From the NCBI GenBank assembly GCA_009392005.1, contig VFHL01000006.1, forward strand, positions 136,671 through 200,670: a stretch of 64,000 nt of DNA, read 5' to 3'. The notes beneath the pieces are model-generated. The model was not told the DNA's origin. It saw nothing but the letters and a program-made list of their open reading frames with translations, and did not search any database. The translations under genes were made by a program, and so were the position numbers. Position 1 is the first letter of the stretch; each line of letters opens with the position of its first letter. Of the stretch, positions 33,907-54,554 are shown piece by piece. This DNA is from SAR202 cluster bacterium. Lineage in GTDB: Bacteria > Chloroflexota > Dehalococcoidia > UBA6926 > VFHL01.

Positions 33907-35799
33907 CTATGCCTTGATTTCTTCTGATTGCTCGCCTAACGATTTGGTGTCATCAAGAGAAGCGTAATTCATGGTATAAAGACGCGTATAAACACCTCCC
34001 TTTGCGAGGAGACTATTATGATCACCCATCTCCTGTATCTCCCCATTCTCGAGAACAATAATTTGATCAGCATTGCGAATTGTCGATAAACGGTGCGCGA
34101 TCACAATAGACGTCCTTCCTTTAAGCAATTCATTCAATGCATCTTGAATTAAGCGTTCTGTATGAGTATCAATGTTTCCTGTGGCTTCATCAAGAATTAG
34201 AATTCGTGGGTCTGCGAGCACCGCACGAGCAAAGCTTAATAACTGTCTTTGCCCCACGCTAAAATTCGCTCCTCGTTCACTCACCTCACCCTGATATTGG
34301 TCATCGAGCATCTCAATAAAATGATCAGCCCCGACTACACGGGCCGCCTGTTTCACCTCATCCAAACTCGCATCCGGACGCCCAAAAAGAATATTGTCCT
34401 CAACCGTACCTGAAAACAAAAAAGGATCTTGAAGAACGACGCCCATCTGCCGTGATATTGATATATGGGTCACGTCTCTCACATCTATCCCATCGATCGT
34501 GATATTACCTTGCGTTACATCATAAAGACGAGGCACCAAATTCACGAAACTCGTTTTACCAGCGCCAGTATGGCCAACGAGCGCAACTGTTTGGCCAGGC
34601 TGGATCGTTAGATCAATATCCTTCAAGATCGGTTGGCCAGGAACATATTCAAAAGTGACTTGATCAAATTTGATTTCTCCCGTGATTGTTGGCAATGGGT
34701 AGGCATCTTCCTTATCAACCACATCTGATTCCGCATCCATAAGCTCAAAAACTCGCACGCCACCTGCCATTGCGCGTTGAAGCTCTGAGTATTGCATAAT
34801 GATGTTACGTATCGGTTCGAAAAATCTTTGCGCATATAATAAAAAGGCCACTACCTCACCTGCTGAAGTATCGCCATTCAGTGCACGAAACCCACCAAAA
34901 ACCACAACCACACCAATCGCTATCGCAGAGTTGATTTCAACAACGGGCATCATTATTCCTGACAAGAACGCCGCACGAATATTCGCATCTAAATGTGAAC
35001 GGTTAATTTCATCAAACTCATCAATATTTCGTTCTTGACGTCGCATGCTCTGAATCGCCTTGGCACCGGAAACGTCTTCTTGAAGCGTCCCATTCACGTT
35101 TGCAATTGCTTGACGCACAGAAACAAAAGCATCACGAGCAAACCGCTGCCACACACTAACTATCAAAACCAGAATGGGGATCCCAACAAGAGTTGCAAAC
35201 GCTAACATCCAATCCATAGCGAACATGACAGCCACTATTCCGATCAAAGTTAACAACTGCGCAATCGTACCCACCAGCCCTTGAGTCATTACTTCTTGGA
35301 TTTGATTGACATCATTCGTGACCCGCGACATTATACGGCCAACTTGGCTACGATCCCAAAATCCCATTGAAAGAGTGTTAAGGTGCGCAAACAAATCATT
35401 GCGTAAAGTGCGAATTAAGCCTTGACCGACGCGAGCCATGTAATATATTTGCGCTCTGTTACCAATTGCCCCAAGTACAGCAATCACAAAGAATAAAGCT
35501 GAAATGAAGAACAAACCATCCAAATCGCCTGGGATAATATATCGGTCGATAGCTATTTGTATGAGCAAGGGGAATAAAACGCTAGCAAGGGTATACGCCA
35601 ACAAACCAGTTATTGCTACGAAACCTTCCCATTTATATGGTTTCAGGTACGGAAAAAGACGTCGCACCACGATATGCTCATACACATTCCCGTACTGCTC
35701 TTCGTCATCAAGGAATCGGTTGGCTGTACCAGCATGCCCGCCTCCAGCACCCGCCTGACGCCGCCAACTGCCACCACGCTTATTTCCGGTTTGCATCAA
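33907..35799 (-). CDS. ABC exporter half-transporter (TMD-NBD)
   Basis: Walker A GHTGAGKTS, FSVGQRQLLSFARA signature, ILDEATGNID. Confidence 0.92.
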   Translation of the reverse strand: MMQTGNKRGGSWRRQAGAGGGHAGTANRFLDDEEQYGNVYEHIVVRRLFPYLKPYKWEGFVAITGLLAYTLASVLFPLLIQIAIDRYIIPGDLDGLFFISALFFVIAVLGAIGNRAQIYYMARVGQGLIRTLRNDLFAHLNTLSMGFWDRSQVGRIMSRVTNDVNQIQEVMTQGLVGTIAQLLTLIGIVAVMFAMDWMLAFATLVGIPILVLIVSVWQRFARDAFVSVRQAIANVNGTLQEDVSGAKAIQSMRRQERNIDEFDEINRSHLDANIRAAFLSGIMMPVVEINSAIAIGVVVVFGGFRALNGDTSAGEVVAFLLYAQRFFEPIRNIIMQYSELQRAMAGGVRVFELMDAESDVVDKEDAYPLPTITGEIKFDQVTFEYVPGQPILKDIDLTIQPGQTVALVGHTGAGKTSFVNLVPRLYDVTQGNITIDGIDVRDVTHISISRQMGVVLQDPFLFSGTVEDNILFGRPDASLDEVKQAARVVGADHFIEMLDDQYQGEVSERGANFSVGQRQLLSFARAVLADPRILILDEATGNIDTHTERLIQDALNELLKGRTSIVIAHRLSTIRNADQIIVLENGEIQEMGDHNSLLAKGGVYTRLYTMNYASLDDTKSLGEQSEEIKA

Positions 35800-35832
35800 A
35801 ACTCATCTCCAGCCCGTCAAGACACGATTTTT

Positions 35833-37686
35833 TCATATCTGTAATATATTCTTAGAGGATTCAAGAGCTTCTTCTTGCTGACGAAGCTGCAACTCATATA
35901 TCTGCCGATACAAGCCTTCTTTTTCCAAAAGAACATCATGCGTTCCTTCTTGCACAATCACACCTTCATCCAGAACGACAATCTTGTCTGCTCGTTTCAA
36001 ATTCGCAAGGCGGTGGGCAATAATGAAGGTAGTGCGATCTTTCATTAGGTCCGTTAATGCTTGTTGAATAAGGTATTCCGTCTCCGTATCAACATTTGAA
36101 AGTGAATCATCTAATACCAAAATCCTTGGATCCAAGAGAAGCGTTCGTGCTATTGCAAGCCGCTGCTTTTGCCCGCCAGATAAGGTGATGCCTCTTTCGC
36201 CAACTTCCGTATCGTATCCATTCGGCAAGGTCATAATAAAATCATGCAGCCGCGCAGCTCGCATAACCCTCTCTATTTCCTCATCACTGGCACCATATTT
36301 TCCATATGCAACATTCTCCCGAATCGTTGCTGAAAAGAGGAATACGTCTTGTTGAACGGTACCAATATTTTGACGTAATGAATCCACTTCGACCGAACGA
36401 ATGTCAACTTCATCAATCAGCAAACGGCCAGAACTCACATCGTAAAAACGAGGGATCAGGCTTACAAGAGTAGTTTTCCCACTACCGGTGCTACCCAAGA
36501 GTGCTACAACCTGATTCGGATCAGCCTCGAGATTAATAGAAGTCAATGTAGAAGTCACTGAGTCATAGCTGAAATTCACATTTTCAAACCTAACTCGGCC
36601 TTTTATAGCCCCCATCGGCTTGGCATCAACTTGATCCGAAATCGTCGGCTCGGCATCAAGTACTTCAAAAATACGCTCACCTGCTGCTACCGAACGTGAT
36701 ACCAAATCTCCCAAAAAACCCAACATTCGAACCTGCTCAGTAAGCATTACGAGGTAGATAAATGCTTGGGTTAATTGGCCAGGCGTCATATTATCGTTAA
36801 TAATCTCACGCCCTCCATAGACCAAAATAGCACCCATCAAAAACCACACGGTTCCAGTCATAACCGCATTATTCGTTGATCTGATAGACGTCCCCAAAAT
36901 GCTGCGATCATAGACATACGTAGAACGATGCTGAAATTTAACATTCTCCGCCTCTTGGCGACCAAAGGAATGAACAATCTTCGCTCCCGCAAGATTTTCT
37001 TGCAAAACCACGGTCATCGCCGCTTGTCCCTCTTGAATCGTTAACCAAATAGGTCGAAGGCTGACACTTGTCTTAATCGCTCGATACCCAATGAATGGGA
37101 TCCCAACAAAAGCTATGAGCGCCAATGGAGGGCTGGTCAACCAAAGAAAAACAAGAATCGCAGTGAAAAATATTGCGGTTTGAAATGGGCGAGGTAGCCC
37201 AATGCTTGTCAACATACGAGCCGCTTCAACGTCGGCGGTTGCTCGTGACATTAGCTCCGCGGTCGGCATCTTGTCGTAAAACGCAAAGCTTTGTTTCTGA
37301 TATGCCTCATAAATATGATTCCTGACATCATATGCAACGCGCTGAGAAATCGACTGATTCAGAAAGGTCTGTGCAAAAGCAGCGACTCCACGTAGAATCC
37401 CAGCTGCGAGGAGACACAAAGCCGTGAGGAAAAGATAGTAAATAGTACCAGGTGTTGCCCAAGCATTTATCACTGGAATGTTCGTTTCATTCCCATTAAT
37501 GCTATCTACCGCCTGAGCCATAAACCACGGCATGATAAACATAAACGAAAGCATCGCAACTAAGGAGATTGCATTAAAAGAAACCAGCTTAATATGTGGC
37601 AACACGAACGCAATTAAGCGAATAATTATGCGCGAGTTATAAACAAACCCACGAGGTCGATCCGCGGCGCTACCACGACTAAACAT
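35833..37686 (-). CDS. ABC exporter half-transporter (TMD-NBD), partner of neighbouring gene
   Basis: GSTGSGKTT, LSGGQKQRLAIARTL, LVLDDSLSNVD (Asp in place of catalytic Glu). Confidence 0.92.
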   Translation of the reverse strand: MFSRGSAADRPRGFVYNSRIIIRLIAFVLPHIKLVSFNAISLVAMLSFMFIMPWFMAQAVDSINGNETNIPVINAWATPGTIYYLFLTALCLLAAGILRGVAAFAQTFLNQSISQRVAYDVRNHIYEAYQKQSFAFYDKMPTAELMSRATADVEAARMLTSIGLPRPFQTAIFFTAILVFLWLTSPPLALIAFVGIPFIGYRAIKTSVSLRPIWLTIQEGQAAMTVVLQENLAGAKIVHSFGRQEAENVKFQHRSTYVYDRSILGTSIRSTNNAVMTGTVWFLMGAILVYGGREIINDNMTPGQLTQAFIYLVMLTEQVRMLGFLGDLVSRSVAAGERIFEVLDAEPTISDQVDAKPMGAIKGRVRFENVNFSYDSVTSTLTSINLEADPNQVVALLGSTGSGKTTLVSLIPRFYDVSSGRLLIDEVDIRSVEVDSLRQNIGTVQQDVFLFSATIRENVAYGKYGASDEEIERVMRAARLHDFIMTLPNGYDTEVGERGITLSGGQKQRLAIARTLLLDPRILVLDDSLSNVDTETEYLIQQALTDLMKDRTTFIIAHRLANLKRADKIVVLDEGVIVQEGTHDVLLEKEGLYRQIYELQLRQQEEALESSKNILQI

Positions 37687-48620: not shown

Positions 48621-49106
48621 ATGAACACAAAACGCAAATGGCTTACCACCGCTTTACTTGCCCTTTTAACATTAGGCATCACAAGTGGATTTGTCCTTGC
48701 CCGGTCCAACACAGAAACAAAACTCGCCACTGCTGTTGAAAACGGAACACTCACACAAGAACAGGCCGACACAAAAATTAAACACTTCAACAATATGCGC
48801 TCAAAGATGGCTAAACCTTTCCCTCACAAACACAGGCCGACCCTAGAAGATGTCACTGCAAAACTCGCCACTGCTGTTGAAAACGGAACACTCACACAAG
48901 AACAGGCCGACACAAAAATTAAACACTTCAACAATATGCGCTCAAAGATGGCTAAACCTTTCCCTCACAAACACAGGCCGACCCTAGAAGATGTCACTGC
49001 AAAACTCGCCACCGCTGTTGAAAACGGAACACTCACACAAGAACAGGCCGATGAGAAACTCCAAATCTGGCAAGAAAAAGATTTTAATCCCCAAAAAGCA
49101 CATTGA
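48621..49106 (+). CDS. Small predicted secreted protein with 47-aa tandem repeats
   Basis: N-terminal signal peptide (KWLTTALLALLTLGITSGFVLA); KLATAVENGTLTQEQADTKIKHFNNMRSKMAKPFPHKHRPTLEDVTA repeated. Confidence 0.85.
   Translation: MNTKRKWLTTALLALLTLGITSGFVLARSNTETKLATAVENGTLTQEQADTKIKHFNNMRSKMAKPFPHKHRPTLEDVTAKLATAVENGTLTQEQADTKIKHFNNMRSKMAKPFPHKHRPTLEDVTAKLATAVENGTLTQEQADEKLQIWQEKDFNPQKAH
48720..49051 (+). repeat. 141-bp direct tandem repeat, two full copies plus a 50-bp partial third
   Basis: Units at 48720-48860 and 48861-49001 read as identical; third begins 49002 and diverges after 49051. Confidence 0.93.
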
Positions 49107-49164: not shown

Positions 49165-49854
49165 TTGGCAAGCACCGTACTAATAGTAGAAGATGATCCT
49201 CATACTGCTAAGATTGTAGAACTATATCTGAATCGCGACGGTCACAAGGTAATCGCAACCGGGGACGGTACACGTGGCCTCGATTTAGCACGGCAGATCA
49301 ATCCCGATCTCATCGTACTCGATGTCATGTTGCCTAACATGAACGGAATTGAAATCTGTCGAATTCTTCGGCTTGAGTCTGACGTTGCAATCGTGATGTT
49401 AACTGCACGAGTTGAAGAGAATGACCGCCTGGCTGGTTTAGATATTGGCGCTGACGATTATGTGACGAAACCTTTTAGCCCTAAGGAATTGGCTGCCCGA
49501 ATTCGCGCTGTTTTACGTCGAACAAAAAACGATGCTTTACGAAACGGACCCGACGAACTCAAATACGAAAATATTACGATCAATATTTCGGACCACAGCG
49601 TGGAGATCAATGGCGATTCGATCCAATTGACACCCACAGAATTTCGCCTTCTTGTTATGTTTCTGAAAAATCCTGCACGTGTCTTGTCACGTGAGCAAAT
49701 TATAAGTGAAGTTTTTGGCTACGATTTTGATGGCTATGATCGAACAGTAGATGTTCATGTTTCCAACTTACGCCGAAAACTTGAATTACATGGAACTTTA
49801 GACAATATCTTACAGACAGCTTACGGTGTGGGGTATAAATTTGGCCATGCGTGA
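49165..49854 (+). CDS. OmpR/PhoB-family response regulator
   Basis: VLIVEDDPHTAKIVELYL, LIVLDVMLPNMNG, C-terminal winged helix. Confidence 0.95.
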   Translation: MASTVLIVEDDPHTAKIVELYLNRDGHKVIATGDGTRGLDLARQINPDLIVLDVMLPNMNGIEICRILRLESDVAIVMLTARVEENDRLAGLDIGADDYVTKPFSPKELAARIRAVLRRTKNDALRNGPDELKYENITINISDHSVEINGDSIQLTPTEFRLLVMFLKNPARVLSREQIISEVFGYDFDGYDRTVDVHVSNLRRKLELHGTLDNILQTAYGVGYKFGHA

Positions 49855-51211
49855 ATGGTTTTTCAGCCTGCAATTTCGTCTAATCACAGCATTCACTTTA
49901 GTTCTCGCTATCGCGCTTTTTAGCGTAAGTATATATGTCGGTCACCAAGCTAAACAAAATGTTCAACGACTTGAATCGGAATTCCAATTAGCACGCGAAG
50001 AACGGGTGCAAGAATTTGTTTCTAGTCTGTATTTAAAAAGCCAAAAATTGTCTGACATCCAACAAACACTTCAAAAAGCTCACCCCTTATTCAAAGAACG
50101 TGTAATAATTCGTGACCGCAATGGAGTCATACTTGCTGATTCACAATATGGCATTAACCGTCGCATTTCCTCCAACAGTAATCGCCTTCTCAATCTCTTG
50201 ATTATCGATGAAAAGATCGAAATTGACCGTGCTACAGCACGACTCCAAGAGGCCTCACAACAAGCGTCTTTCAGCGACCCAGGTTTTTCACGACTATTGG
50301 CAGCAGTAAACAGATCACTTTTATGGGCAGGAATTGCAGCAGGATCAGGGGGGATTTTATTGATCTCCCTTATTTCTCAGCGCATTCTGCAACCGATTCG
50401 TAGATTAGGTACTGCCTCACGAAACCTCGGCAGCGGTGATCTAACACAACGAGTGTCCCCATCAACAATTGGAGAACTTGGCGAACTCGGGCGAACATTT
50501 AATTCCATGGCCACAAATCTTCAGATGGCGGAACAGCAACGACAAGATTTAGCCGCCGATATCGCTCACGAATTACGCACACCGCTCTCTAACGTCCGCG
50601 GTTACGTAGAGGCAATAAAAGATGGTCTTACAGAACCCGATGCTCCAACGATTGACATTATTCATCAACAAATTCTGCACTTGAATCGTTTAATCGAGGA
50701 TCTTCGATTACTTGCCTTAGCGGAAGCGGGCGCGCTTAAGCTTGCTTTAGGTGAAACTGATATTGAGCTGATTCTGTCTCAATCAATCGACGCCATTTTG
50801 CCGCGAGCCCAGTTAAGCAATATTGTAGTTGATTTAATGCAACCAACTGATTTACCAAGAACCTCCGGTGACGAGACGCGTATCAGACAAATCATCACTA
50901 ATCTTTTGGAAAATGCCCTCACACATACACCCAATGAGGGAAAGATTACCGTCAGCAGCAGTGTGACCCAAACAAATTTCATCCGCATTGAAATCACAAA
51001 CACCGGCCCTAGTATATCTGAAGAAGATTTGGCCCAGATTTTCGAGAGATTCTATCGCACCGATCCATCGCGCAGTCGCTCAACCGGTGGGACAGGCCTA
51101 GGACTCACAATCGTCAAACAATTAGTTGAACTGCATGGTGGTACAGTTGTTGCGGAAAACGCTTCGGACAACACAATCATTTTCATCATCGAATTGCCTA
51201 TTTCACCCTAA
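49847..51211 (+). CDS. Sensor histidine kinase
   Basis: Two TM helices, HAMP, DIAHELRTPLSN H-box, GTGLGLTIVKQLVELHGG G-box. Start overlaps regulator stop; supplied ORF starts 49826. Confidence 0.94.
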   Translation: MREWFFSLQFRLITAFTLVLAIALFSVSIYVGHQAKQNVQRLESEFQLAREERVQEFVSSLYLKSQKLSDIQQTLQKAHPLFKERVIIRDRNGVILADSQYGINRRISSNSNRLLNLLIIDEKIEIDRATARLQEASQQASFSDPGFSRLLAAVNRSLLWAGIAAGSGGILLISLISQRILQPIRRLGTASRNLGSGDLTQRVSPSTIGELGELGRTFNSMATNLQMAEQQRQDLAADIAHELRTPLSNVRGYVEAIKDGLTEPDAPTIDIIHQQILHLNRLIEDLRLLALAEAGALKLALGETDIELILSQSIDAILPRAQLSNIVVDLMQPTDLPRTSGDETRIRQIITNLLENALTHTPNEGKITVSSSVTQTNFIRIEITNTGPSISEEDLAQIFERFYRTDPSRSRSTGGTGLGLTIVKQLVELHGGTVVAENASDNTIIFIIELPISP

Positions 51212-51230: not shown

Positions 51231-52190
51231 TTACATCCGGGTTATCTCATCTTCATTAACGATTAATGTCTCAACAGGAAGATGAAATGCTTTCGCTATT
51301 TTAAGAATCGCTCCAAATGTAACGTTTTGTTTCCCATTTTCTACTGCACTAATATATGTACGATCCAGTTCAGCCTCGTTCGCTAATTGTTGTTGTGTCC
51401 AGCCAGTATCCTGTCGCAACGCAAGTATTCTCTGACCAAGCACTTGAAGATACTGGTCTAGAGATACGTTTCCCATCTTTTCCGCAACAAGCACTCGCGC
51501 ACTATGAATTGCACCAACGGCATCAAGAGCCGTTCCATCCGCTCCTACTTCTTGTGCTAATTCTGGGTTCTCACGAAACAAAGTCCCTCCCACCAGAATT
51601 TTTGGAGGAGTCGGCAAGTTGTGAATTGCGGAAACCATTTCCGCCAATCGGGACACAATGTCCGAATTCTTCATCGTTGCCGAAATCAGCACCAAATCAA
51701 TCACCCGATTCTCTAAAAACGATACCACCGCCTGTCGTGGAGTATTGGAACCCAAGTAATCGACAGCCCATCCATCAGCAATCAACAAATCAGCTACCAT
51801 CCGCGGACCAACATTGTGTGTTTCACCTTCTGCTGTCGTCACAAGAGCGCGGGCTCTTGGTGTAACAGATGGTTTGATATCCTGACGCAATCTAGCCATA
51901 TGATTTAATGTGATTTGCGTTGCAGCATGCTCATCCGCAATCCCTATCTCATCTGCATGCCACATCTCTCCGATCCGCACTTGAGCCGGAGAAAACAACT
52001 TAAGATACACATCAGCCATCGTCCAACGCATCCTCTGTAGCATATTTTCTACAATCTTTTCCGCCCGCGTGTAATCTCCTTTAAGCACGTAATCAATATA
52101 ATCTGCTACATAATCCCGCTCTTGCACTCGGTCTTCTTGCATAATATGTCCCGCATCCTGGTTGATTTTGTAGGATATACTTGACACCAT
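51231..52190 (-). CDS. Cobalamin-binding CarH-like sensor/regulator with C-terminal XRE-type HTH
   Basis: B12-binding cap WHADEIGIADEH (W-x9-EH), ExHxxG (ETHNVG), SATMK, GG; C-terminal GWTQQQLANEAELDRTYISAVENGKQNVTFGAILKIAKAF. Start uncertain: 52199 (TTG), 52190 (ATG) or 52142 (MQEDRV). Confidence 0.88.
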   Translation of the reverse strand: MVSSISYKINQDAGHIMQEDRVQERDYVADYIDYVLKGDYTRAEKIVENMLQRMRWTMADVYLKLFSPAQVRIGEMWHADEIGIADEHAATQITLNHMARLRQDIKPSVTPRARALVTTAEGETHNVGPRMVADLLIADGWAVDYLGSNTPRQAVVSFLENRVIDLVLISATMKNSDIVSRLAEMVSAIHNLPTPPKILVGGTLFRENPELAQEVGADGTALDAVGAIHSARVLVAEKMGNVSLDQYLQVLGQRILALRQDTGWTQQQLANEAELDRTYISAVENGKQNVTFGAILKIAKAFHLPVETLIVNEDEITRM

Positions 52191-52299
52191 ATATCTCAAT
52201 TGTTATATATATATTACATCACTTTAGTATTGGTGTCGTAATAAATCAACAAAACGTAAGGATACAACCCGGGAACAGGCCGATACAAATCAAACTTGC

Positions 52300-54351: not shown

Positions 54352-54474
54352 AAAAGCTTGATCGATTTACTACAACAGTTGGGAGAGACAGTGAGTTACA
54401 ACATCAGACAAAACACATACAAACACCGAACACGGTGGAGGAGCGAGTTATCGGGAGAGACAACCGATCTTCTA

Positions 54475-54554
54475 CTTTACACGCAGGGGGTCAGAGGTTC
54501 GAGTCCTCTATCGTCCACCACTAATTTCGTATCTAAAAAGTGGTTTTACCCCTC
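54475..54554 (+). repeat. att-like direct repeat, copy 2 (tRNA-Val 3' remnant)
   Basis: ctttacacgcagggggtcagaggttcgagtcctctatcgtccaccactaatttcgtatctaaaaa... duplicates tRNA-Val 3' end without a 5' half. Confidence 0.9.

Follow-up and report, generated by a model that had tools for sequence, protein, structure and literature searches.

The locus and the organization of the regulator gene

The window, by which we mean the whole 64,000-nucleotide stretch of DNA analyzed here, carries on its minus strand an open reading frame at 51231-52199 coding for a protein in which a cobalamin-binding domain (CBD) is followed by a C-terminal Cro/CI-type (XRE) helix-turn-helix (HTH). The frame had been reported in the initial annotation, which gave no strand, and we confirmed its existence; its annotated TTG start at 52199 is unlikely to be correct. 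Since the first codons from that TTG coincide in part with a conserved operator (52169-52186) and with a predicted promoter, the ATG at 52142 (residue 20 of the 322-aa frame) is the likely start, giving a protein of 303 aa. The features of the locus are as follows, with residue numbers from the 322-aa frame.

51231-52142, minus strand: gene of the XRE-CarH-like regulator from its likely start, ATG 52142-52140 (303 aa and stop), with operator and promoter upstream of the ATG
51888-52103, minus strand: four-helix-bundle cap, residues 33-104 (Pfam B12-binding_2, 2.3e-12; AlphaFold helices)
51927-51971, minus strand: adenosyl-capping motif GEMWHADEIGIADEH, GxxW-x9-EH, residues 77-91 (invariant in 36/36 homologues)
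51513-51851, minus strand: Rossmann-type B12-binding subdomain, residues 117-229 (Pfam B12-binding, 7e-16)
51807-51824, minus strand: lower axial His motif ETHNVG (H128), then x41-SAT-x28-GG (read from the sequence)
51249-51440, minus strand: C-terminal Cro/CI DNA-binding domain (XRE; HTH_3/HTH_31/HTH_19), residues 254-317 (3.6e-11 to 2.7e-6)
52169-52186, minus strand: predicted operator 1, TGTCAAGTATATCCTACA, overlapping the predicted -10 hexamer, 26 nt before ATG 52142
52200-52219, minus strand: candidate operator 2, a weaker palindrome, ATGTAATATATATATAACAA (TTGTTATATATATATTACAT on the plus strand), PWM score 14.8, 32 bp from operator 1
52172-52199, minus strand: predicted sigma-70-like promoter, -35 TTGAGA, 16-nt spacer, -10 TATCCT (9/12 matches)
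49165-51211, plus strand: two-component system (OmpR-type response regulator, HAMP histidine kinase) that converges on the XRE-CarH gene and stops 20 bp short of it

The Pfam matches to B12-binding_2, B12-binding and HTH_3/HTH_31 all exceeded their gathering scores, and those to HTH_3 (4.1e-11) and HTH_31 (3.6e-11) spanned residues 254-310. No MerR domain was found by the domain scan, and the XRE/HTH_3 domain at the C terminus is the sole DNA-binding domain of the protein, in agreement with the initial description of a C-terminal XRE in the place of an N-terminal MerR. The gene stands alone between the convergent two-component system and a tRNA, with neither a photolyase nor a fasciclin gene next to it. 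Elsewhere in the window, a 161-aa secreted-looking protein of near-identical repeats (TAVENGTLTQEQADTKIKHFNNMRSKMAKPFPHKHRPTLEDV) is encoded at 48621-49106 on the plus strand, and a second tRNA-Val (tac) called by ARAGORN at 54441-54520 (plus strand), unsupported by Rfam, is probably either spurious or a degenerate copy.

The light-sensing signature and the predicted fold

The cap region contains WHADEIGIADEH at residues 80-91 (W80, E90 and H91), the exact W-x9-EH motif claimed earlier, and GETHNVG at residues 125-131 contains the ExHxxG motif proposed to supply the lower axial His, which we located at H128 and found invariant in a 33-row alignment. W-x9-EH together with the B12 motif identifies CarH homologues (PMC8156234); GxxW, EH, GxxH and GxxxP are described in the SignatureFinder paper as the signature of light-responsive CBDs (PMC11796333). 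The latter signature is complete in the regulator, as GEMW, EH, GETH and GSNTP (within LGSNTP). The CarH/LitR class I motif pair (Wx9EH and D/ExHx2G/P-x41-SxT/V-x22-27-GG) is likewise present, with a spacer before GG of 28 residues in the window copy, one above the published 22-27, and of 26-27 in nearly all relatives.

All 36 full-length CBD+XRE proteins of the family described below carry GxxW-x9-EH, and in the 33-row alignment W77, E87, H88 and H125 (numbering from M4) and the motif G do not vary among proteins that are 29-40% identical to that of the window. This conservation in 36/36 homologues at such low identity indicated that the match is well beyond chance. The regulator has a His directly after the Trp, as does Thermus CarH, in which this residue gives rise to a bis-His light state (PMC8156234; PMC11796333). 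Among family members the position is occupied by H, M, L, K, D, R, I or F, so the light-state chemistry may differ from one member to another.

AlphaFold2, run on the 33-sequence family alignment, yielded a model of the regulator with a pLDDT of 91.3 and a pTM of 0.75, in which the HTH helices extend from H244-262 to H292-301. When the model was compared with the PDB by Foldseek, 50 of the 50 matches listed were B12 (AdoCbl) photoreceptors, namely photocobilins (8J2W, 8J2X and 8J2Y), the CtMerR CBD (8JBS and 8JBT) and CarH/LitR entries. The PDB sequence matches were 8j2y and 5c8d, that of the photocobilin being confined to residues 29-237.

The family, its operator and its neighborhoods

Profile searches recovered 36 full-length CBD+XRE proteins in 33 genomes, all from the window's phylum: 25 of the 393 that were sampled from the class, plus eight from elsewhere in the phylum; a second full-length copy (42% identity) lies on contig 4 of the window genome. 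In a tree built from 71 cobalamin-binding domains, the XRE members all fall on the same side of one branch (support 88/87; 96% of bootstraps). This is compatible with one origin of the XRE fusion, with the provisos that the long branch of the Thermus CarH row prevents its placement and that the XRE set had been gathered with its own profile. In a 250-genome sample around a Bacillota genome no CBD+XRE protein was found, the best matches covering the CBD only; a single-protein scan of genome contigs gave only HTH matches, in Bacilli, and plasmid records gave CBD matches (Thermus CarH and Azospirillum), none covering 80% of the query. Within this sampling, which beyond the phylum consisted of the Bacillota-centered 250 genomes and the plasmid and contig scans, the architecture was seen only in the phylum of the window. 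Other light-signature CBDs were also encountered: those at L067, L077 and related Cdom loci (f110) have an extra C-terminal ~130 aa lacking a Pfam match, possibly photocobilin globin domains, and those at L054, L058 and L122 have an N-terminal 100-150 aa with neither a Pfam match nor a MerR domain, putatively another output or sensor domain.

The upstream regions of the related genes have in common an 18-bp palindrome with the consensus TGTnnRnTATAnYnnACA, for which an EM motif search on 20 genus representatives gave a log-likelihood of 124 versus 57-63 in six shuffles. The exact pattern occurs once in the 1.6-Mb window genome, at the promoter of the regulator. As this pattern was derived with the window site in the set, the independent test is the leave-out one, in which the best site of the whole region lay at the family gene promoter in 26 of 36 regions, the promoter zone making up ~2% of each region, and the window operator was the best of 64,000 positions with its own genome left out of training. 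The palindrome often comes as a pair: a spacing of 31-33 bp (about three helical turns) was found for both copies of the window genome and in three other groups, and one of 26 bp in one further group. Judged by its position and conservation, the palindrome is probably the binding site of the regulator. The predicted promoter that it overlaps is a weak consensus match, of a kind no more numerous than in shuffles. The number of one-mismatch matches elsewhere in the genome (11 versus 14 in a reversed control) is at chance level; matches near a flavin reductase and a glycosyltransferase belong to this set.

Clustering of the genes around 35 family loci revealed recurring neighbors: DNA photolyase, GTP cyclohydrolase I (FolE), DUF2867-SDR, DUF1365, SRPBCC, an FAD-dependent amine-oxidase-like protein, a TIGR01777 epimerase, fasciclin and heliorhodopsin (8.7e-96). 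In statistics that ignore phylogeny, photolyase is present in 9/25 family genomes of the class versus 24/368 others (Fisher 5.5e-5), and fasciclin in 11/25 versus 21/368. Half of the photolyases in family genomes of the class (5/10) lie within 7 kb of a family gene; in the G189 and G135 relatives, the regulator's promoter is close to a photolyase operon. Of the 16 family genomes with a fasciclin gene, 13 have it next to the family gene (14 with the G331 remnant). At L094, where fasciclin and regulator genes converge, the two have separate operators, an arrangement that speaks for fasciclin as a target rather than just a neighbor. Fasciclin and photolyase were also found ~1-7 kb apart at three sites in genomes that yielded no XRE-CarH (G143 C16, G186 C2 and G272 C59), which suggests that a fasciclin-photolyase light-damage module exists without this regulator.

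The contig 4 copy (L085:7315-9884; G000 contig 4, about 34014-36583) is divergent from a TIGR01777/ThyD-like epimerase gene and an SRPBCC gene, with a one-mismatch operator between the regulator and the pair. The TIGR01777/SRPBCC pair is also present at related loci and may be the target of this copy. For the window copy, the sequence supports self-regulation alone. A carotenoid regulon was considered for it and rejected, there being no SQS_PSY (phytoene/squalene synthase) match in the window genome; the paired SQS_PSY copies in relatives may make squalene instead of phytoene.

A proposed light-released repressor and its relation to known systems

Because its light-sensing domain is of the CarH type and its relatives lie beside light-damage genes, the regulator is probably a green-light-sensitive gene switch, of a design that has received little study. 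We propose, with a probability of roughly 0.78, that it is a one-component green-light sensor and a dark, AdoCbl-bound transcriptional repressor that regulates itself. In the dark, AdoCbl would be held between the four-helix cap (W80, E90 and H91) and the Rossmann domain, with H128 as the lower ligand, and its binding would bring the CBDs into a dimer or tetramer, as in CarH. The oligomer would present its C-terminal XRE domains in pairs to the palindromic operators, which, often two in tandem, would cover the promoter of the regulator itself and thereby place the gene under its own control. Light would break the Co-C bond, the adenosyl group would leave, and the oligomer would fall apart and free the promoter; in relatives, the switch would also control the neighboring photo-damage genes. 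We infer AdoCbl binding, the light response, the repressor sign, the oligomer change and the binding of the operator by this protein. The AdoCbl use expected of the window genome (see below) fits the proposal; the absence from that genome of photolyase, heliorhodopsin, fasciclin and SQS_PSY speaks against it. The initial reading, an AdoCbl-dependent light- or B12-responsive repressor, is a prediction now supported by the computed domains, fold match, invariant chromophore residues, neighborhoods and operator.

The light-sensing CBD could instead act as an activator or via partner proteins: in one photocobilin, light activates the fused cyclase, and standalone forms act via protein contacts (PMC10979010). 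The variation of operator spacing between genera fits this reading, but the overlap of operator 1 with the predicted -10 hexamer is what repression by occlusion would lead one to expect, and we regard the activator reading as unlikely. Quite unlikely, too, is a sensor of B12 availability, in which the AdoCbl level would alter DNA affinity and light would play no part in the physiology, as might be the case for an organism living in the dark. The window genome lacks photolyase, heliorhodopsin and any carotenoid-type synthase, it is expected to make or import, and use, AdoCbl because it encodes a methylmalonyl-CoA mutase domain, and the same chemistry would give AdoCbl dependence without light. 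However, the family neighbors are photo-damage genes rather than genes of B12 synthesis or uptake, the light-linked W-x9-EH is invariant, an Rfam search of the window returned tRNAs only and no cobalamin riboswitch, and green light would be expected to photolyze any such AdoCbl-capped CBD. A corrinoid-methyltransferase-type (MtbC/MtgC-like) cobalamin protein joined to an HTH and regulating one-carbon metabolism is very improbable, as the NCBIfam MtgC/MtbC models gave 28-37 bits, below their cut-offs of 350-370, CarH and photocobilins score far better by sequence and structure, methyl-type domains such as MetH lack the adenosyl-capping motif (PMC8156234), and no methyltransferase gene recurs near the family loci.

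The proposed repressor shares with CarH/LitR class I (Thermus thermophilus CarH, PDB 5C8D/5C8E) the CBD fold, the W-x9-EH cap, the His after the Trp, ExHxxG-x41-SxT-GG and GxxxP, and the Thermus carH gene adjoins a photolyase gene, like those of several relatives here. In contrast, class I proteins have an N-terminal MerR domain rather than a C-terminal XRE domain, the CarH operator consists of 11-bp direct repeats, nAnnTnnACAn (PMC8156234), rather than a candidate 18-bp palindrome, and carotenoid genes are absent from the vicinity of the regulator described here. Lacking a MerR domain and scoring 67.9 bits, over the CBD only, against the cut-off of 400 of the CarH equivalog model (NCBIfam NF052513), the regulator is not a CarH by definition; by its anatomy, as seen in sequence and model, it probably works like one. 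Photocobilins (SasPcob and AbDPcob; 8J2W and 8J2Y) are the best structural and sequence matches and likewise have the CBD N-terminal and the output domain C-terminal, but the regulator has no biliverdin globin-like domain, the HTH follows the CBD, and its output is a DNA-binding domain and not a diguanylate cyclase.

Two systems resemble the family in their genes rather than in their regulators. The light-induced genes of Pseudomonas, the targets of class II LitR (PplR/PmlR), include photolyase, SDR, FAD oxidoreductase and FolE and overlap the family neighbors (PMC9758184), although class II LitR is an unrelated MerR-type regulator without B12 that works with a LOV protein. The RpoE-ChrR photooxidative (singlet-oxygen) regulon of Rhodobacter, controlled by an unrelated sigma/anti-sigma pair, contains the fasciclin RSP_1409 with photolyase, FolE2 and SDR (PMC7074977, Table 1), which again overlap these neighbors.

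As to whether the architecture is already described, a point raised in the initial annotation, it is not wholly unprecedented, since a 2024 database-mining paper noted, in general terms, fusions of an HTH to the N or C terminus of light-signature CBDs (PMC11796333, section 12 and Fig. 9). The main text of that paper mentions no XRE, operator or regulon, and in the searchable literature, including that main text, we found no description of the XRE subfamily, its operator or its neighbors, nor, for the phylum, of comparable light regulation. The family is a candidate regulator of light-damage defense in the phylum, and it might serve as a tool for green-light-controlled expression from a palindromic operator. 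It pairs the B12 light-sensing module with a second, unrelated DNA-binding fold at the opposite end of the protein, and its predicted operator is directly testable. On balance we favor the view that these proteins form a class of their own among B12 photoreceptor repressors, distributed widely across the phylum (probably Chloroflexota). In this class, MerR and direct repeats would have given way to a C-terminal XRE domain and to tandem palindromes three helical turns apart, and its members would control a photo-damage regulon (photolyase, FolE, fasciclin and heliorhodopsin) and not carotenoid synthesis. Set beside CarH, such a class would provide a naturally occurring counterpart for studying how the photolysis of adenosylcobalamin is linked to the release of DNA.
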